NCBI GenBank assembly: GCA_017433125.1
Contig: JAFRHT010000048.1
Location: forward strand, 1-35,480
DNA: 35,480 nucleotides
Origin: Solobacterium sp.
GTDB lineage: Bacteria > Bacillota_I > Bacilli_A > Erysipelotrichales > Erysipelotrichaceae
Direction: 5' to 3'
This document shows, in pieces, positions 28,859-35,480 of the stretch (its first letter is position 1; every line of letters starts with the position of its first letter). Both the position numbers and the translations under genes were made by a program. Below the pieces are notes generated by a model. That model did no database searches. It was not told the DNA's origin and was given only the letters and a program-made list of their open reading frames with translations.

Positions 28859-31207
28859 TCAAAGACCCAGCAGGATCAGGATAAACCGCATGACAAACGC
28901 GCATATCCAGGCAATAACACACTGGAACACCACCATGAACGCGGCCCACCGGCCGCCCAGTTCCCGCCGCACTGAGGCAACAGCCGCCACACACGGCGTG
29001 TACAGCAGGCAGAAGACCAGCAGCACCGCAACCGCCAGCGGGGTCAGCACCTGGGCCATGGCCGCTTCACTGCCGAACAGGATATTGAGGGTCGAGACTA
29101 CGCTTTCCTTGGCCATGAAACCGGTCAGCAGCGCTGTGGAAATACGCCAGTCACCCAGGCCCAGCGGCTTCAGCACCGGGGCAATGAAACCGGCCAGCAG
29201 TGCCAGAATGCTGTCATGGCTGTCCTGCACCATAGTCAGATGCGGGTCCAGATTCTGCAGGAACCAGATGACAACTGTAGCCACAAAGATAATCGTGAAC
29301 GCCCTGGTCAGAAAATCCTTTGCCTTCTCCCACAGCAGCTGGCCCACGTTGCGGGCACTCGGAAGACGGTAATTCGGCAGTTCCATGACAAACGGTACGG
29401 CTTCCCCGCGGAAGACAAACTGCTTGGACAGCAGGGCTGTCAGAATGCCGACGATGATACCCAGCACATACAGGCCAACCATGATCAGCGCGCCATGCCG
29501 GGGGAAGAACGCTGCGGTAAAGAACGCGTAGATCGGCAGTTTCGCCGAACAGCTCATAAACGGTGCCAGCAGGATTGTCATCCGCCGGTCCCGTTCCGAC
29601 GGCAGTGTGCGGCTGGCCATAACCGCCGGCACTGTGCAGCCGAAACCGATCAGCATCGGCACAATACTCCGGCCGGACAGACCGATTTTCCGCAGCAGCT
29701 TGTCCATCACGAAGGCAATCCGGGCCATATACCCGGTGTCTTCCAGCAGGGACAGGAAGAAGAACAGGGTGACGATGATCGGCAGGAAGCTGAGCACGCT
29801 GCCGACCCCGTTGAAGATGCCGTCAATGACCAGTGACCGAATCATCGCATTGATACCGGCGGCTTCCATTGCTGCCGCGCAGGCTGCTGTCAGATGATCA
29901 ATACCGGCGGCCAGCAGATCCTGCAGCCATGCGCCGATCGTATTGAAAGTCAACCAGAAAACCGCGCCCATGATGAGAATAAACGCAGGGATAGCTGTAT
30001 ACCGGCCGGTCAGGAAGCGGTCAAGTGCTTCCGAGCGGCTCCGCTCCACACTTGTATGCGGCTTGATAACTGTCTGGTCAACTACCCGGCGGATGAAGTC
30101 GAAGCGCATTTCGGCAATAGCTGCCGCGTGATCCAGGCCGCGTTCCTTTTCCATCTGCAGGACAATGTGATCCAGCATCTCCTTTTCATTGGCATCCAAC
30201 TGCAGCTTTTCCAGAATCATGCCATCCCCTTCGATGAGCTTGCCGGCCGCAAACCGCAGCGGTATCCCTGCCTTGACCGCGTGATCCTCAATCAGGTGCA
30301 TGACCCCGTGCAGGCATCTGTGGACAGCGCCGTTATGATCTTCCGCTTCACAGAAGTCCTGTTCCCTGGGACGTTCCTGGTATTTTGCTACATGCACCGC
30401 GTGTTCGATCAGTTCATCTACACCCTGGTTCCTGATGGCCGCGATCGGCACCACCGGCACCCCGAGCATTTCCTCCATCTCGTTGATGCGCACCGAGCCG
30501 CCGTTGTTCTGCACTTCGTCCATCATATTCAGCGCCACAACCATCGGCACCTGCAGTTCAAGAAGCTGCAGGGTCAGATACAGGTTGCGTTCAATATTCG
30601 TCGCGTCAACGATATTGATGATGCCCTTCGGTTTTTCATCCAGGATAAACTGCCGGGATACGATTTCCTCACTGCTGTACGGGGACATCGAGTAGATCCC
30701 GGGCAGATCGGTTACTTCCGTCTCAGGATAGCCCCGGATGACCCCGCTCTTACGGTCCACTGTCACTCCCGGGAAATTACCCACATGCTGGGAGGAACCC
30801 GTCAGTTGATTAAACAGGGTTGTCTTGCCCGAGTTCTGGTTGCCGACCAGGGCAAAGGTCAGTTTCTCCCCTTCCGGCAGCGGATGTTCATCGCGGCGGG
30901 AATGGAATCTGCCGCCTTCCCCGAGGCCCGGATGATCATGGCCGGCTTTCTTCCGGTTTTCATCGTTTTCTTCCGCTTCCGCCATATCCATACTGATTTC
31001 GATTTTTCTGGCATCGTCCAGCCGCAGCGTCAGTTCATACCCGCGCAGCCGGATTTCCATCGGATCTCCCATCGGGGCATACTTCACCAGGGTTACCGTC
31101 GTGCCGGGAATCAGACCCATGTCAAGAAAATGCTGGCGCAGGGCACCGCTTCCGCCGACTGTCATTACAACGGCTGACTGGCCTTCTTTCAGTTCATTCA
31201 GATTCAT
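28859..31207 (-). CDS. feoB: Ferrous iron transporter, FeoA-FeoB fusion
   Basis: The protein has 782 residues from the ATG at 31207 after ACGGAGAACAAAG. Residues 1 to about 80 are a FeoA SH3-like domain (LKEGQSAVVMTVGGSGALRQ, LDMGLIPGTTVTLV). A charged linker with several His residues (about 85-110) follows, then the FeoB G domain with GNQNSGKTT (G1), VTDLPGIYSMSPYSSEE (G3), and NMMDE (G4; NKxD is common elsewhere). The C-terminal two-thirds is the membrane channel with two Gate motifs, including GFGCTVPAVMASRTL. It moves Fe2+ into the cell under GTP control. Fusion of FeoA to FeoB occurs in some anaerobes and removes the need for a separate small gene. No FeoC gene is adjacent. A palindrome lies 17 bases upstream. 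Confidence 0.95.
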   Translation of the reverse strand: MNLNELKEGQSAVVMTVGGSGALRQHFLDMGLIPGTTVTLVKYAPMGDPMEIRLRGYELTLRLDDARKIEISMDMAEAEENDENRKKAGHDHPGLGEGGRFHSRRDEHPLPEGEKLTFALVGNQNSGKTTLFNQLTGSSQHVGNFPGVTVDRKSGVIRGYPETEVTDLPGIYSMSPYSSEEIVSRQFILDEKPKGIINIVDATNIERNLYLTLQLLELQVPMVVALNMMDEVQNNGGSVRINEMEEMLGVPVVPIAAIRNQGVDELIEHAVHVAKYQERPREQDFCEAEDHNGAVHRCLHGVMHLIEDHAVKAGIPLRFAAGKLIEGDGMILEKLQLDANEKEMLDHIVLQMEKERGLDHAAAIAEMRFDFIRRVVDQTVIKPHTSVERSRSEALDRFLTGRYTAIPAFILIMGAVFWLTFNTIGAWLQDLLAAGIDHLTAACAAAMEAAGINAMIRSLVIDGIFNGVGSVLSFLPIIVTLFFFLSLLEDTGYMARIAFVMDKLLRKIGLSGRSIVPMLIGFGCTVPAVMASRTLPSERDRRMTILLAPFMSCSAKLPIYAFFTAAFFPRHGALIMVGLYVLGIIVGILTALLSKQFVFRGEAVPFVMELPNYRLPSARNVGQLLWEKAKDFLTRAFTIIFVATVVIWFLQNLDPHLTMVQDSHDSILALLAGFIAPVLKPLGLGDWRISTALLTGFMAKESVVSTLNILFGSEAAMAQVLTPLAVAVLLVFCLLYTPCVAAVASVRRELGGRWAAFMVVFQCVIAWICAFVMRFILILLGL

Positions 31208-31223
31208 CTTTGTTCTCCGTGCA

Positions 31224-31238
31224 TCTAACAATGTTAGA
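31224..31238. promoter_or_regulatory. Perfect palindrome upstream of feoAB, candidate iron-regulator operator
   Basis: TCTAACAATGTTAGA has 7-bp arms around a single central base. Its distance of 17 bases from the start puts it in the promoter-proximal or leader position typical of a repressor site. The CTAACA/TGTTAG arms faintly recall DtxR/MntR-family half-sites (CTAACC in DtxR) more than a Fur box. The regulator is not in the window. Confidence 0.45.
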
Positions 31239-31277
31239 CGATACAAACAGTATTGTACTATGAATCCGGATAAATGA

Positions 31278-31299
31278 AAGGATGCATTTCCGCATCCTT
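31278..31299 (-). terminator. Possible terminator of the AbgB-like gene
   Basis: An 8-bp stem (AAGGATGC / GCATCCTT) with 6-base loop is followed on the minus strand by TTCATTTA. The T tract is imperfect. Confidence 0.5.
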
Positions 31300-31324
31300 C
31301 CGGGAATTTGTTCCGGGTATTCCG

Positions 31325-32767
31325 TTAATCTTCCAACGGCCGCAGGACCGCGTCAGCCGGCACAGGGCTCAGGAAACCGTCCTTAACCCGTTCAGCGTGC
31401 TCGCTCTTTGCGGCTTCGATCAGTTCCGGATGCTCATACAGGTCAATTGCCGCCCCGCACAGCACCTTACCGGCCAGGATCAGACCCTTGTGGCCGATTT
31501 CCGTCCGGCCGCAGGAAACATTCTGCCAGCTGTGCCCCGGGCTTCTCGCGACAAAGCAGGCCGTATGGATCTGCGCCGTCGGTACGCACCAGCTGACATC
31601 GCCGACATCGGTCGAGCCTTTGCTTTGCAGTTCGTTGTGCTCATACGGCACCAGGAAGTCATTGATGACCCTTGTACCGTTTTCGGAGTGTTCACGCACA
31701 TAGGCAACCGCTGCCGGTGAAGAAGCTTCATTGATGCCCGGCAGGGTGTCGCTCTTCATTTCAATGGACGCGTTCAGCTCCCTTGCGTAGGCCCACTCCT
31801 CTTCGGTATATTCCGGCAGCGGCACAGCCTTGAAGTTATCATACAGGACTTCTTCCAGGACTTTGTTCGGCACTGTGTTTGAGCAGCCGTCGATGAATAC
31901 CCTGGTCAGTTCTGTCTCGGTCATCATGGACGCAGCCAGGGCGATCTTATCCAGTCTTTCCTGCAGTTTCAGCGCATTCTTCACCCAGGTGGAGCGCACC
32001 ATGTAAAGCACCCGGGCATGGGGCTGCACAACATTCGGAGAAGGTCCGCCGGCATCGGTGATCGCGTAGTGGATCCGGTCATTGTCAGGGATGTGTTCCC
32101 GCATGAATTCCACGCCCATGTTCATCAGCTGCACCGCATCCAGGGCTGAACGGCCCCGCTCCGGTGCGCCGGCCGCGTGGCTGGCAATACCTTTGAACCA
32201 GTATTCAGTCTGAATGCAGGAATTGCAGGTCCCGCTGACAACCTCATTCTCGGTGCCCGGATGCCAGGTCAGGCAGACATCTGTATCCCGGAACACCTGA
32301 TCTCTCGCAAAGAACGCTTTTGCGGCACCGCCCTCCTCACCCGGACAGCCATAGAAAATTACTGTGCCCTGCCCCGGATGATCTTCCAGATAGCACTTGA
32401 TGCCATACGCGGCTGCCAATGATCCGGCTCCCAGCATATTATGGCCGCAGCCATGCCCGCTGCCGTTTTTTACCAGTTCCTCGCGGACCGCCGAGCCGCC
32501 TTTCTGCGACAGGCCGGACAGGGCATCGTATTCTGCCAGAATGCCGATCACCGGGCGGCCGCTGCCATAAGTACCGATAAAGGCTGTCTCAATGCTGTCA
32601 AACGGAGCTGTCACCGCAAAGCCGAGCTCCTTCAGTACTTTGACATACAAGGCCGCAGACTGATGTTCCTTGACCGACAGTTCGGCATATTCCCAGATCT
32701 GATCCGAAACATCCGTAAAGATCTTCCGATTCTCTTCAATATAGCCGGCATACGTCTTTTTCTCCAT
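31325..32767 (-). CDS. M20-family amidohydrolase, AbgB-like
   Basis: The protein has 480 residues, longer than the four other M20 proteins here and of a different branch (M20D/amidohydrolase). Motifs: GILAEYDALSG in place of the H-x-D pair, GHGCGHNMLGAGSL (metal-binding Cys/His cluster), FYGCPGEEGGAAKAFFARDQ, and CLTWHPGTEN. A second CIQTEYWFKGIASHAAGAPE marks the dimerisation-domain start. The length and the GxGCGHN motif fit the p-aminobenzoyl-glutamate hydrolase subunit AbgB and related aminoacylases, which cleave N-acyl bonds of amino acids or folate breakdown products. No AbgA or AbgT gene is adjacent. GGAGGATCAGTAAAT precedes the start. The TetR gene lies divergently upstream and may regulate it. 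Confidence 0.88.
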   Translation of the reverse strand: MEKKTYAGYIEENRKIFTDVSDQIWEYAELSVKEHQSAALYVKVLKELGFAVTAPFDSIETAFIGTYGSGRPVIGILAEYDALSGLSQKGGSAVREELVKNGSGHGCGHNMLGAGSLAAAYGIKCYLEDHPGQGTVIFYGCPGEEGGAAKAFFARDQVFRDTDVCLTWHPGTENEVVSGTCNSCIQTEYWFKGIASHAAGAPERGRSALDAVQLMNMGVEFMREHIPDNDRIHYAITDAGGPSPNVVQPHARVLYMVRSTWVKNALKLQERLDKIALAASMMTETELTRVFIDGCSNTVPNKVLEEVLYDNFKAVPLPEYTEEEWAYARELNASIEMKSDTLPGINEASSPAAVAYVREHSENGTRVINDFLVPYEHNELQSKGSTDVGDVSWCVPTAQIHTACFVARSPGHSWQNVSCGRTEIGHKGLILAGKVLCGAAIDLYEHPELIEAAKSEHAERVKDGFLSPVPADAVLRPLED

Positions 32768-32972
32768 ATTTACTGATCCTCCATTTCTTTTATTGTATTC
32801 ATTTTTTATTAGAAAATTGCCCTGTCTTTGTTCTCTTTTTTACGGTGGAGATCTTTTTAAATTCTTTTAATTTTTTCTCTTCAGAACAAAAAAATTATTT
32901 ATGGCATGCATATGAAACCTTATGAAAGAGCAGAAAACTAATAACGTATAATGTATAAGGAGGATTATTCCT

Positions 32973-33539
32973 ATGGCGAATCAACACACGCGAAAGGCCA
33001 TTCAGGACGAATTCCTGATTCAGCTCAGCCATAAACCTCTTAACAAAATCACCGTATCTTCCATTGTCCAGAACTGCCGGATTAATCGGAATACTTTCTA
33101 TTATTACTATCAGGACATCTATGACCTGCTCAGGGACATTCTGAACAGTGAATTAAAAAAGACCATCGCATACAGCAGCAGTTCTGCCTCCTGGGAAGAA
33201 TGGTTTTTATATGCCCTTCAGGTTATACTTCAGAATCCGGAGGCCATCAGCAATCTTTATCATTCCAGCCAGCAGAACCTCCTTCATGCCTATGTGTTTG
33301 AAAGCACCGGCATCATCATGCGGCAGTATATTGCATCTGTCGGGCAGGATCTGAAGCCGCAGCCGGCTGATGCTGAACTGCTGACCCTGTTCTATCAGTG
33401 TGCCCTCACGGAACTGGTGGAACAATGGCTCAAAACCGGCATGACCGATGATGCGGAAAGCATCATCCGGCATATCGGCCTGCTGATGAACGGCACCATA
33501 CGGGAAGCCCTTATACGCAGCGAAAGTCTCCGCGGCTGA
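32973..33539 (+). CDS. TetR/AcrR-family transcriptional regulator
   Basis: The protein has 188 residues. The N-terminal helix-turn-helix is KITVSSIVQNCRINRNTFYY followed by YYQDIYDLLRDIL, the normal TetR pattern. The C-terminal part is a helical ligand-binding/dimer domain of the type often annotated TetR_C in Bacillota, with a polyserine stretch at 53-58 of the domain linker. GGAGGATTATTCCT precedes the start. It is divergent from the AbgB-like gene, 205 bases away, and probably controls it or itself (inference). The 205-base gap is strongly A/T-rich with an ATGCAT core at 32906; no palindrome longer than six bases was found there. Confidence 0.88.
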   Translation: MANQHTRKAIQDEFLIQLSHKPLNKITVSSIVQNCRINRNTFYYYYQDIYDLLRDILNSELKKTIAYSSSSASWEEWFLYALQVILQNPEAISNLYHSSQQNLLHAYVFESTGIIMRQYIASVGQDLKPQPADAELLTLFYQCALTELVEQWLKTGMTDDAESIIRHIGLLMNGTIREALIRSESLRG

Positions 33540-33587
33540 GCGGAGCAATAAGAAAACAGGCATTGCCTGCTTTGCCGGACATGAAAA

Positions 33588-33608
33588 AATGACCCTCACC
33601 AGGTCATT
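33588..33608. terminator. Bidirectional terminator between TetR and the small cysteine-rich gene
   Basis: A 7-bp stem (AATGACC / GGTCATT) with CTCACCA loop has AAAAA before and ATTTT after. It serves the convergent genes on both sides. Confidence 0.7.
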
Positions 33609-33885
33609 ATTTTACGTTCGGATCGCCGTGATCTTTTCCGTACATGCAGTAATTCTTAATGTCACGGATATGAATATTCCACCAGCAGCACACATTGTCA
33701 CTGTCTCTTCTGACACAGTCTTTGCACTGGATGATCTGTTCCACATCCGGATCCGGCTGTCTATTGATCAGTTCTTCAATTTCCTTTGCGGAAAAGCGGG
33801 CCACATCATAGCCGCCCTTTTCTCTTGCCAGAGCGGAAAGCTGTTCCTTCAGAAACGGGCTGTCAATCTGTCCTGTATGTCTCAT
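33607..33885 (-). CDS. Small cysteine-rich protein, phage-like, unknown function
   Basis: The protein has 92 residues. The second half has CKDC (residues 54-57), then CC and YCMYGKD, a four-to-five-cysteine pattern suggesting one bound zinc. Short proteins with a C-x2-C-x(8-12)-C...C-S/M-Y-G-K/E motif are common in phages and prophages of anaerobic Bacillota, where they are uncharacterised. It has no membrane segment. It sits 107 bases from cas1 on the opposite strand. It could be a remnant of a prophage, or a small factor of the neighbouring defence locus; the sequence does not decide this. No strong ribosome binding site was found upstream. Confidence 0.5.
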   Translation of the reverse strand: MRHTGQIDSPFLKEQLSALAREKGGYDVARFSAKEIEELINRQPDPDVEQIIQCKDCVRRDSDNVCCWWNIHIRDIKNYCMYGKDHGDPNVK

Positions 33886-33992
33886 TGTTCCTACCTGCCT
33901 TTATATACATTTGTCATTGTATAACAAAACCGTGAGAAAGAACAGATGCCAGCTTCCGGCATCTCGTATGATAGATCCCGGGAGGTGTTTTC

Positions 33993-34895
33993 ATGTCTTT
34001 TCGTGCTCTTGAAATCAATAAACCGTCAGAACTTCATATTCATCATCATGTTCTGGAAATTCAGCAGGAGGACCAGATCCTGCGGATTCCGGTTGATGAC
34101 TGCAACGTGATCATCGCATCCGGTCCTGATGTCAGACTGTCCGCCAATGATCTGTCTGTTCTCGCCGACAGTGATGTACTTTTCATGACCATAGACAATC
34201 ATTATCTGCCCTCCTCCATGACGCTTTCATTTGCGAACAACGTCAGGCAGGCGCGGACGATGAAAAAACAGCTAACCATGTCCCGGCGGCGCAGAAACAA
34301 TCTTTGGGATCAATTGATCTGTGCAAAAATTCGTAACCAGTCTGCTGTACTATATCTTCTGCAAAGGGATGGGAGCCAGGAGATCTATGACTATGCCGGC
34401 AGGGTCAACCGTGGTGACAGAGATCACATCGAAGCGCTGGCTGCCAACAGGTATTTCCAGTATTATCACTCGGGTTTAAACCGGCGCTGTGATGATCCGG
34501 TCAACAGCTGTCTGAATTACGGCTATACCATTCTGCGCAGTGCTGTCGCAAGAAGTGCGGCCGCTCATGGCTTTCTTCTTTCTGAAGGCACATATCATCA
34601 CAACACGTTCAATTCTTTCAATCTTGTGGACGATCTGATTGAGCCATTCCGTCCGATTGCCGATCTTCAGTCAGCATACATCGTTTCGAATCAGATCCGT
34701 CTGTCCCGGGAACAGCGCAGAAAACTGATGGGTATTCTGTATCTTGAAACAAGAATTAACGGAGAAATCAACACCGTACTGCAGGCTATCGATATTATGG
34801 TGAACAGTGTCAAATCTTATATGTACTCTGAAACCGATGAAATATTGGTGCCTGAACTTCTTTCCATTCATGAGAAAGGAGGTGTCAGTGAATGA
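33993..34895 (+). CDS. cas1: CRISPR-associated integrase Cas1, type II style
   Basis: The protein has 300 residues, the usual length of type II Cas1 (about 290-305). The start MSFRALEINKPSELHIHHHV, the block LNYGYTILRSAVARSAAAHG and the FNSFNLVDDLIEPFRP motif match type II-A/II-C Cas1. Metal-binding residues are in place: Glu147 (DHIEALAA), His202 (EGTYHHNTFN) and Asp214, with Glu217 nearby. Cas1 with Cas2 inserts new spacers into a CRISPR array. GGGAGGTGTTTTC precedes the start and cas2 overlaps its end. Type II loci normally have cas9 directly upstream on the same strand; here the upstream genes are a small phage-like gene on the other strand and a TetR gene. A 7-bp hairpin (33944-33964) lies 28 bases before the start. 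Confidence 0.95.
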   Translation: MSFRALEINKPSELHIHHHVLEIQQEDQILRIPVDDCNVIIASGPDVRLSANDLSVLADSDVLFMTIDNHYLPSSMTLSFANNVRQARTMKKQLTMSRRRRNNLWDQLICAKIRNQSAVLYLLQRDGSQEIYDYAGRVNRGDRDHIEALAANRYFQYYHSGLNRRCDDPVNSCLNYGYTILRSAVARSAAAHGFLLSEGTYHHNTFNSFNLVDDLIEPFRPIADLQSAYIVSNQIRLSREQRRKLMGILYLETRINGEINTVLQAIDIMVNSVKSYMYSETDEILVPELLSIHEKGGVSE

Positions 34896-35197
34896 GAATA
34901 TTTGTTCTTTTAAATCCGACAAACAAGCACGGAACAAAGACAGAATATACCTTATTCCGGAAAGAACTTCAGAAATTAGGCTTCCTGCAGCTGCAGCCGG
35001 AAGTGTTCATGCGAGTCACTTCCAGCAGAAAATCATGTGATAAGTTTTTTACAAAAATGTCTGCAAAAGCCCCAAAAACGGGAAGAATTATCGCATATAA
35101 AATGACAGAAAAACAGTTCAGCAGACTTGTATACATTACAGGAAAAGCCTCTGTTCAAGAAGAATTAATAGGATCGAAGGATGTTATAATATTATAA
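34892..35197 (+). CDS. cas2: CRISPR-associated Cas2
   Basis: The protein has 101 residues and overlaps the cas1 stop by four bases (ATGA), so it is translationally coupled. The N-terminus MRIFVLLNPTNKHGTKTEYT, then FRKELQKLGFLQLQPEVFMR, is the ferredoxin-like fold of type II Cas2, where the first strand is usually followed by an aspartate (F-F-D-L-P). Here that position is Asn8 (VLLNP). The aspartate is the proposed metal ligand for nuclease activity and is dispensable for spacer integration in E. coli. The fit to the Cas2 fold is good in length and pattern, and the neighbourhood makes it firm. Confidence 0.88.
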   Translation: MRIFVLLNPTNKHGTKTEYTLFRKELQKLGFLQLQPEVFMRVTSSRKSCDKFFTKMSAKAPKTGRIIAYKMTEKQFSRLVYITGKASVQEELIGSKDVIIL

Positions 35198-35200
35198 ATA

Positions 35201-35236
35201 GTTTGACGAGGGTCGGAATTCGGAGGGGTGTCAAAC
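35201..35236. repeat. 36-base element with CRISPR-repeat-like ends (single copy)
   Basis: It starts GTTTGAC, ends GTCAAAC, and is 36 bases long, the length and terminal form of many type II CRISPR repeats (GTTTGAG...CAAAC in relatives). It begins three bases after the cas2 stop. Only one copy is visible; no second copy follows after a 28-32 base spacer. It may be a degenerate last repeat or chance. Confidence 0.3.
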
Positions 35237-35480
35237 AATGGGCAGAGATATATACAGGATGTTGTAATTAGACAGGCGCCATTAAAAGAAAACAGATACG
35301 TAACTAGAATGTATCTGCACGATGTGAATCTTGTCAAAATAGAAAATGGGATTCAATCGTTTACTAATCCAGCCCTTGGATTACAAGGAGTCCGGCCGAT
35401 TGAATCCCTTAATCAAAATATAGCAGATTCTCAAGACAATTCAAGTGGCAGCACACAGTTTTCTCGGCAATTAAATGACG
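35228..35480 (+). CDS. Unidentified open reading frame, truncated by the window edge
   Basis: A frame is open from 35207 to the edge. If it starts at GTG 35228 it reads VSNNGQRYIQDVVIRQAPLK and continues for 84 codons; the first ATG in frame is at 35309. The amino-acid content is rich in Asn, Gln and Ser in the last 35 residues. GGAGG lies too close to the GTG (one base gap). An ATG at 35238, in a different frame and better spaced, opens only a nine-residue peptide. The frame contains the inverted repeats described separately, which is unusual for a coding region. It is not recognisable as Csn2 or Cas9. It may be noncoding. Confidence 0.25.
   Translation, partial: MSNNGQRYIQDVVIRQAPLKENRYVTRMYLHDVNLVKIENGIQSFTNPALGLQGVRPIESLNQNIADSQDNSSGSTQFSRQLND
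35293..35317. repeat. Short inverted repeat
   Basis: CAGATAC (35293-35299) and GTATCTG (35311-35317) form 7-bp arms around an 11-base loop. It lies 30 bases before the larger nested repeat. Confidence 0.5.
35348..35408. repeat. Nested inverted repeat (12-bp outer arms, 7-bp inner hairpin)
   Basis: Outer arms GGGATTCAATCG (35348-35359) and CGATTGAATCCC (35397-35408) are perfectly complementary. Inside, TAATCCA (35365-35371) and TGGATTA (35377-35383) form a second perfect hairpin with GCCCT loop. The result is an interrupted long stem enclosing a hairpin, with 13 unpaired bases on the right side. No T run follows, so it is not a plain terminator. Confidence 0.7.

Follow-up and report, generated by a model that had tools for sequence, protein, structure and literature searches.

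Cas1-Cas2 loci without Cas9 and with gene-sized DNA behind their repeats in Solobacterium and distant bacteria

Cas1-Cas2 is known as the writer of ~30-nt memories for RNA-guided effectors. The family of loci described here shares with the type II CRISPR-Cas systems homologous Cas1 and Cas2 proteins, a 36-nt repeat beside cas2, an intact Cas1 active site and, probably, leader-side polarity, but differs from them in having neither cas9 nor 30-nt spacers, in repeat intervals of 229-1458 nt, in a Cas2 that lacks the FDLP motif, and in hairpin repeats that lie 2-66 nt behind cas2. Integrons provide a second comparison, in that an array of gene-sized, apparently captured DNA stands behind an integrase gene and contains short repeated sites, with a resistance gene included in Campylobacter coli; however, the presumed integrase of the family is Cas1-Cas2 in place of the tyrosine recombinase IntI, the sites are 36-nt repeats in place of attC, most inserts are cut mid-gene, and no excision is known. 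Casposons (Cas1-solo transposons) also use a Cas1-family enzyme outside CRISPR immunity, but the family has cas2 and a repeat array, and there is no PolB among the annotated cas1 neighbours in its three complete replicons (L070, L102 and L104). Isolated or orphan cas1-cas2 loci likewise have cas genes without an effector or a normal array (PMC5294841); the survey of these joined arrays only if they were ≤200 bp apart, and long-interval arrays would therefore have gone unrecognised there as one array. A search of the open-access literature, with preprints and most subscription papers outside its scope, gave no match to a long-spacer or gene-capturing Cas1-Cas2.

The window, by which we mean the whole 35,480-nt stretch of Solobacterium sp. 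DNA that was analysed, ends at position 35480 together with its contig, 244 nt past the first repeat, and belongs to a 2.18-Mb genome that is 96.8% complete. Its right edge contains the following features.

32973-33539, + strand: TetR/DhaS-like gene, upstream of cas1
33607-33885, - strand: 92-aa ORF, upstream of cas1, with no family match
33993-34895, + strand: cas1, 300 aa; NCBIfam cas1_NMENI (TIGR03639, 'type II Cas1', E=2e-64) and Pfam Cas_Cas1 (7e-23)
34892-35197, + strand: cas2, 101 aa, divergent; TIGR01573 (1.3e-10)
35201-35236, + strand: first 36-nt repeat, GTTTGACGAGGGTCGGAATTCGGAGGGGTGTCAAAC, with ends GTTTGAC...GTCAAAC, 3 nt past the cas2 stop
35237-35480, + strand: start of the first long insert, an open frame of 81 codons that runs to the contig end

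The original prediction of a complete type II-style cas1 with a coupled cas2 is borne out by both gene families and by the 4-nt overlap of the cas2 start with the cas1 end, and the repeat-like element that it placed three bases behind the cas2 stop is a 36-nt CRISPR-type repeat. It also recorded a TetR gene and a small phage-like gene in the usual place of cas9; the TetR assignment holds, but the 'phage-like' label is unsupported because the 92-aa ORF has no match among Pfam, NCBIfam or PADLOC models. Further left, a 795-aa leftwards-transcribed ORF (28859-31246) resembles, by eye only, a FeoA-FeoB fusion for ferrous iron transport.

The window cas1 encodes the sole Cas1 found in a whole-genome search, and Cas9 was not found in the same genome with models TIGR01865 and HNH_4. 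The catalytic Glu, His and Glu of Cas1 integrases are present as E147, H202 and E217 (profile alignment to PDB 4zkj and 5xvn), and these are invariant across the three complete Cas1 members of the family. The repeat folds as a hairpin (-9.9 kcal/mol) and is a single copy in the genome, with zero chance matches expected at ≤3 mismatches. There is no second repeat in the 244 nt that remain before the contig end, and this DNA (35237-35480) has no match to families, phages or viral contigs.

A goat-gut MAG contig of the same species (L005) is 99.8% identical to window positions 29544-35236, and the match goes no further than the final base of the repeat. Beyond that point the two are wholly unlike: the MAG contig continues with 417 nt of unrelated DNA containing an antisense gene, a second exact 36-nt repeat, and then other DNA again.

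More distant relatives were found in two genomes of the same genus, G057 (locus L018) and G052 (L019), whose Cas1 proteins are 50-53% identical to that of the window, and in G166 (L061), which belongs to another genus. In G057, cas1-cas2 is followed 4 nt past the cas2 stop by a 36-nt hairpin repeat and a complete 110-aa gene; the second repeat, 737 nt on, is degenerate with 13 mismatches. An HNH_4 search of this genome revealed no Cas9, only a 122-aa HNH ORF. G052 has cas1 and a cas2 that is truncated, and an antisense 102-aa gene lies between its two 36-nt repeats, which are 391 nt apart. By the second repeat is a HIRAN-domain gene that matches the candidate defence family PDC-M03B (1e-12), in a row with a DnaJ-like gene and a Sel1/TPR gene (L019 8508-8900 and 6864-8511).

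The G166 locus has the longest array, with six identical 36-nt repeats (GGTTGATAGGGGACTGAAAACCGTCCCTCGTCAAAC), the first of them 2 nt past the cas2 stop, at intervals of 839, 677, 483, 335 and 229 nt, and no 30-nt spacer is left among them. Genes in these inserts, mostly cut at the repeat borders, encode a Prp protease, the first part of a head-scaffold protein, the last part of a phage ejection protein, an uncharacterised phage protein and an FMN-binding protein. The 335-nt fourth insert, with the FMN-binding gene, matches contig C162 of the same genome at 98% identity over its exact full length; C162 carries a longer FMN-binding gene followed by another reading frame, a putative flavodoxin. 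On this alignment, insert 4 reads as a captured copy with exact borders. It is the one insert for which a source was located; searches of phage records, viral contigs, plasmids and 70 genomes of the genus gave none for the others, apart from one distant Prp. The G166 cas1 is split between the ends of contigs C75 and C73; judging from the end sequences, an IS200/IS605-type insertion seems to lie at the break.

The same architecture is present in complete replicons of three distant bacteria: the C. coli plasmid p13786 (L070; NZ_OQ553946.1), which was reached by a protein search of plasmids, Eubacterium eligens ATCC 27750 (L102; NC_012780.1) and Treponema saccharophilum pTS1 (L104). In p13786 a 5'-truncated cas1 and cas2 precede the repeat GTTGAATGACCCGCCAAAAATGGTGCATCGTTCAAC, which occurs twice without mismatch at a distance of 1458 nt (L070 9897-11426); the insert starts with a truncated reading frame and carries aph(2'')-Ii as well as a GNAT gene that is complete. 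The published account of p13786 (PMC10800408) notes cas1 and cas2 next to tet(O), in passages that leave the flanking repeats undescribed. The cas2 region is 88% identical to that of E. eligens, and the similarity ends where the first repeat ends. E. eligens itself has an exact repeat and a one-base-deleted repeat 676 nt apart, enclosing one small gene that is complete and a C39 peptidase that is truncated, and a second record, FDAARGOS_1570, has the identical arrangement. In pTS1 two 36-nt repeats (one mismatch) lie 1339 nt apart and the insert has two complete genes and a tRNA-Glu (TTC) gene (L104 9356-9429).

The architecture is thus present in seven lineages: the window species, the three relatives, and the C. 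coli, E. eligens and T. saccharophilum replicons. Six of the seven have 36-nt repeats at intervals of 229-1458 nt, the exception being G057 with its degenerate second copy, and the first repeat is always 2-66 nt behind cas2. Among the insert contents are fragments of phage genes, part of an FMN-binding gene, the GNAT and aph(2'')-Ii pair, and a gene for a tRNA. No further long-interval arrays were found among 392 genomes of the phylum or in viral contigs. Five of the seven lineages have a damaged cas gene, and only the window species and G057 appear intact; besides the split G166 cas1, the truncated G052 cas2 and the 5'-truncated C. coli cas1, E. eligens lacks cas1 and has a frameshifted cas2, and the T. 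saccharophilum cas2 is 5'-truncated.

As controls we used type II cas2 loci from other Bacilli, 39 of which have readable repeats. The array period is 64-67 nt in all 39 (with three 132-nt double steps) and the arrays usually begin 0.7-1.2 kb past cas2. One control (L055) has a regular array with a 66-nt period only ~60 nt past cas2, and because of this, closeness of an array to cas2 does not by itself define the long-interval family. In a tree of five long-interval Cas1 sequences (two of them partial) and 45 controls, the five form one clade with an ultrafast bootstrap of 100 and SH-aLRT of 99, recovered in all bootstrap trees. The Cas2 proteins differ too, in that an F/Y-D-L/M-P (FDLP) motif with its Asp is present in every control Cas2 aligned (~50) and lost in all long-interval Cas2 proteins, in which the N-terminus has LLN-PTNK (as in the window) or ILS-PTDR in its place. 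The repeats form hairpins of -9.5 to -19.9 kcal/mol in the family versus 0 to -5.8 in 30 control repeats, with no overlap. Distant Cas1 loci of the window's own genus do have large HNH_4 (Cas9-sized) frames. No cas9 is seen in the DNA assembled downstream of cas1-cas2 for L018, L019 and L061, or among the genes annotated near this pair in L070, L102 and L104.

Three interpretations had been offered from the window sequence, and one of them, an effector-less adaptation module, agrees with the lack of Cas9 in the window genome and in G057 and of cas9 near the other loci read. A rearranged locus with cas9 downstream finds no support in the whole-genome searches or in the assembled relatives, and a new effector beyond the edge likewise lacks support, as the DNA after the first repeat is unrelated in every relative and contains no conserved gene. 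The main point, arrays with gene-sized intervals, was not visible from the window sequence. Of the comparisons suggested along with these interpretations, synteny shows that cas1-cas2 and the adjacent 36-nt repeat recur while their neighbours differ, and the tree places the type II-like Cas1 in the long-interval clade, apart from the controls.

We consider it probable that these loci are effector-less, type II-derived Cas1-Cas2 modules that capture long DNA at the leader-side repeat, forming an integron-like but CRISPR-derived collector. The architecture is shared by seven lineages with a single Cas1 clade and an altered Cas2, the insert borders fall exactly at the repeats, one insert has a source of the same length in its own genome, and two pairs of relatives diverge after repeat 1. 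Because of the homology to CRISPR adaptation, the two pairs that differ only after repeat 1, and the exact insert borders, we propose that the leader-side repeat is where Cas1-Cas2 would attach a long piece of DNA, and that repair would then duplicate this repeat, as in CRISPR adaptation. The inserted piece would be a long and mostly randomly cut fragment of 0.2-1.5 kb, made up of parts of phage, plasmid or cell genes and sometimes of whole genes. A collector of whole-gene cassettes only was rejected as an explanation because most inserts are cut mid-gene. Since the first repeat is 2-66 nt behind cas2, the 3' end of cas2 may serve as the leader, with acquisition at the leader end, and the captured DNA would sit in the transcribed tail of the cas operon. 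The 30-nt ruler may have been lost because Cas9, the csn2-sized gap of the control loci and the usual Cas2 N-terminus are all gone. In ten of 12 inserts the genes point the same way as the operon (p=0.04), so that expression of captured genes and fragments, as RNA or protein read out from the cas operon, is plausible. The likeliest benefits to the cell would be gene acquisition, as with integrons, or phage interference brought about by the expression of phage fragments.

The main rival explanation is that these are decaying type II remnants from which cas9 and the spacers have been lost, with long DNA introduced between leftover repeats by deletions, insertions and homologous recombination and without capture by Cas1-Cas2. 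The broken cas genes in five of seven lineages and the degenerate second repeat of G057 fit such decay, but the L061 array, in which six identical repeats enclose five long intervals and no 30-nt spacer remains, the restriction of the pattern to one Cas1 clade with a common Cas2 change and a common repeat type, and a copy whose borders fall exactly at the repeats do not, and we regard it as unlikely. Somewhat less likely again is that cas1-cas2 is a passenger and that another recombinase, or homologous recombination, places long DNA at the repeats. The ~30-nt measure of normal Cas1-Cas2 speaks for this, integration of long fragments by these proteins being our proposal; yet neither the ORFs nor the gene annotations examined near the loci include an integrase gene, let alone one common to them, the neighbours of cas1-cas2 differ in every lineage, and the first repeat is always directly behind cas2.

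Two further explanations concern the assemblies and seem to us very improbable. The sequences of the window, L005, L018, L019 and L061 come from draft or metagenome assemblies, and the contigs of the window and L005 both end near the array, as would be expected if an assembler had walked from a spacer of an ordinary array into a matching phage or plasmid. The divergence of L005 right after the repeat had suggested this, but L061 and the complete replicons speak against it: the pattern is the same in three complete replicons, one of which is represented by two records, L061 would implausibly require five chimeras in succession, and the 2% difference of insert 4 from C162 argues against an assembly walk. 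With 244 nt of contig past the window repeat and a genome completeness of 96.8%, a stretch could be missing that holds a normal cas9, tracrRNA and array, which would leave only a change in gene order. We give this equally little credence, as no Cas9 was found anywhere in the window genome, an ordinary array would show three more repeats in those 244 nt, cas9 is absent downstream in the assembled relatives, and the repeat type and Cas2 are unlike those of the controls.

Capture of long DNA by Cas1-Cas2 thus remains our preferred reading, and what is new in it is the whole, an effector-less Cas1-Cas2 with gene-sized inserts, as the parts are homologous to CRISPR. Whether it extends to a Cas9-less platform that samples phage, plasmid and cell DNA of hundreds to more than 1000 bases, keeps the pieces between hairpin repeats just downstream of its own operon and expresses them, as a counterpart of integrons able to carry resistance genes between distant bacteria, we consider evenly balanced. 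If true, there would be a second use of the Cas1-Cas2 integrase, with gene-sized pieces and no effector, in a lineage spread across several phyla; the length ruler of Cas1-Cas2 could be lost; genes, resistance genes among them, would have an additional capture route alongside integrons; and efforts to record long DNA would have somewhere to begin. A directly testable question also arises, namely whether Cas1-Cas2 can insert pieces several hundred bases long at a repeat.

The bias towards sense inserts offers a hint of retro-capture of RNA, and no more than a hint because the L005 and L019 inserts are antisense. In the G166 array (L061 557-3335) insert length falls steadily with distance from cas2, an order with a chance of 1 in 120; simple shrinkage with age fails to explain it, because insert 4 is full length relative to its source. 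The same genome has a second, distant Cas1, a 356-aa open frame on contig C94 (L067 1547-2299).
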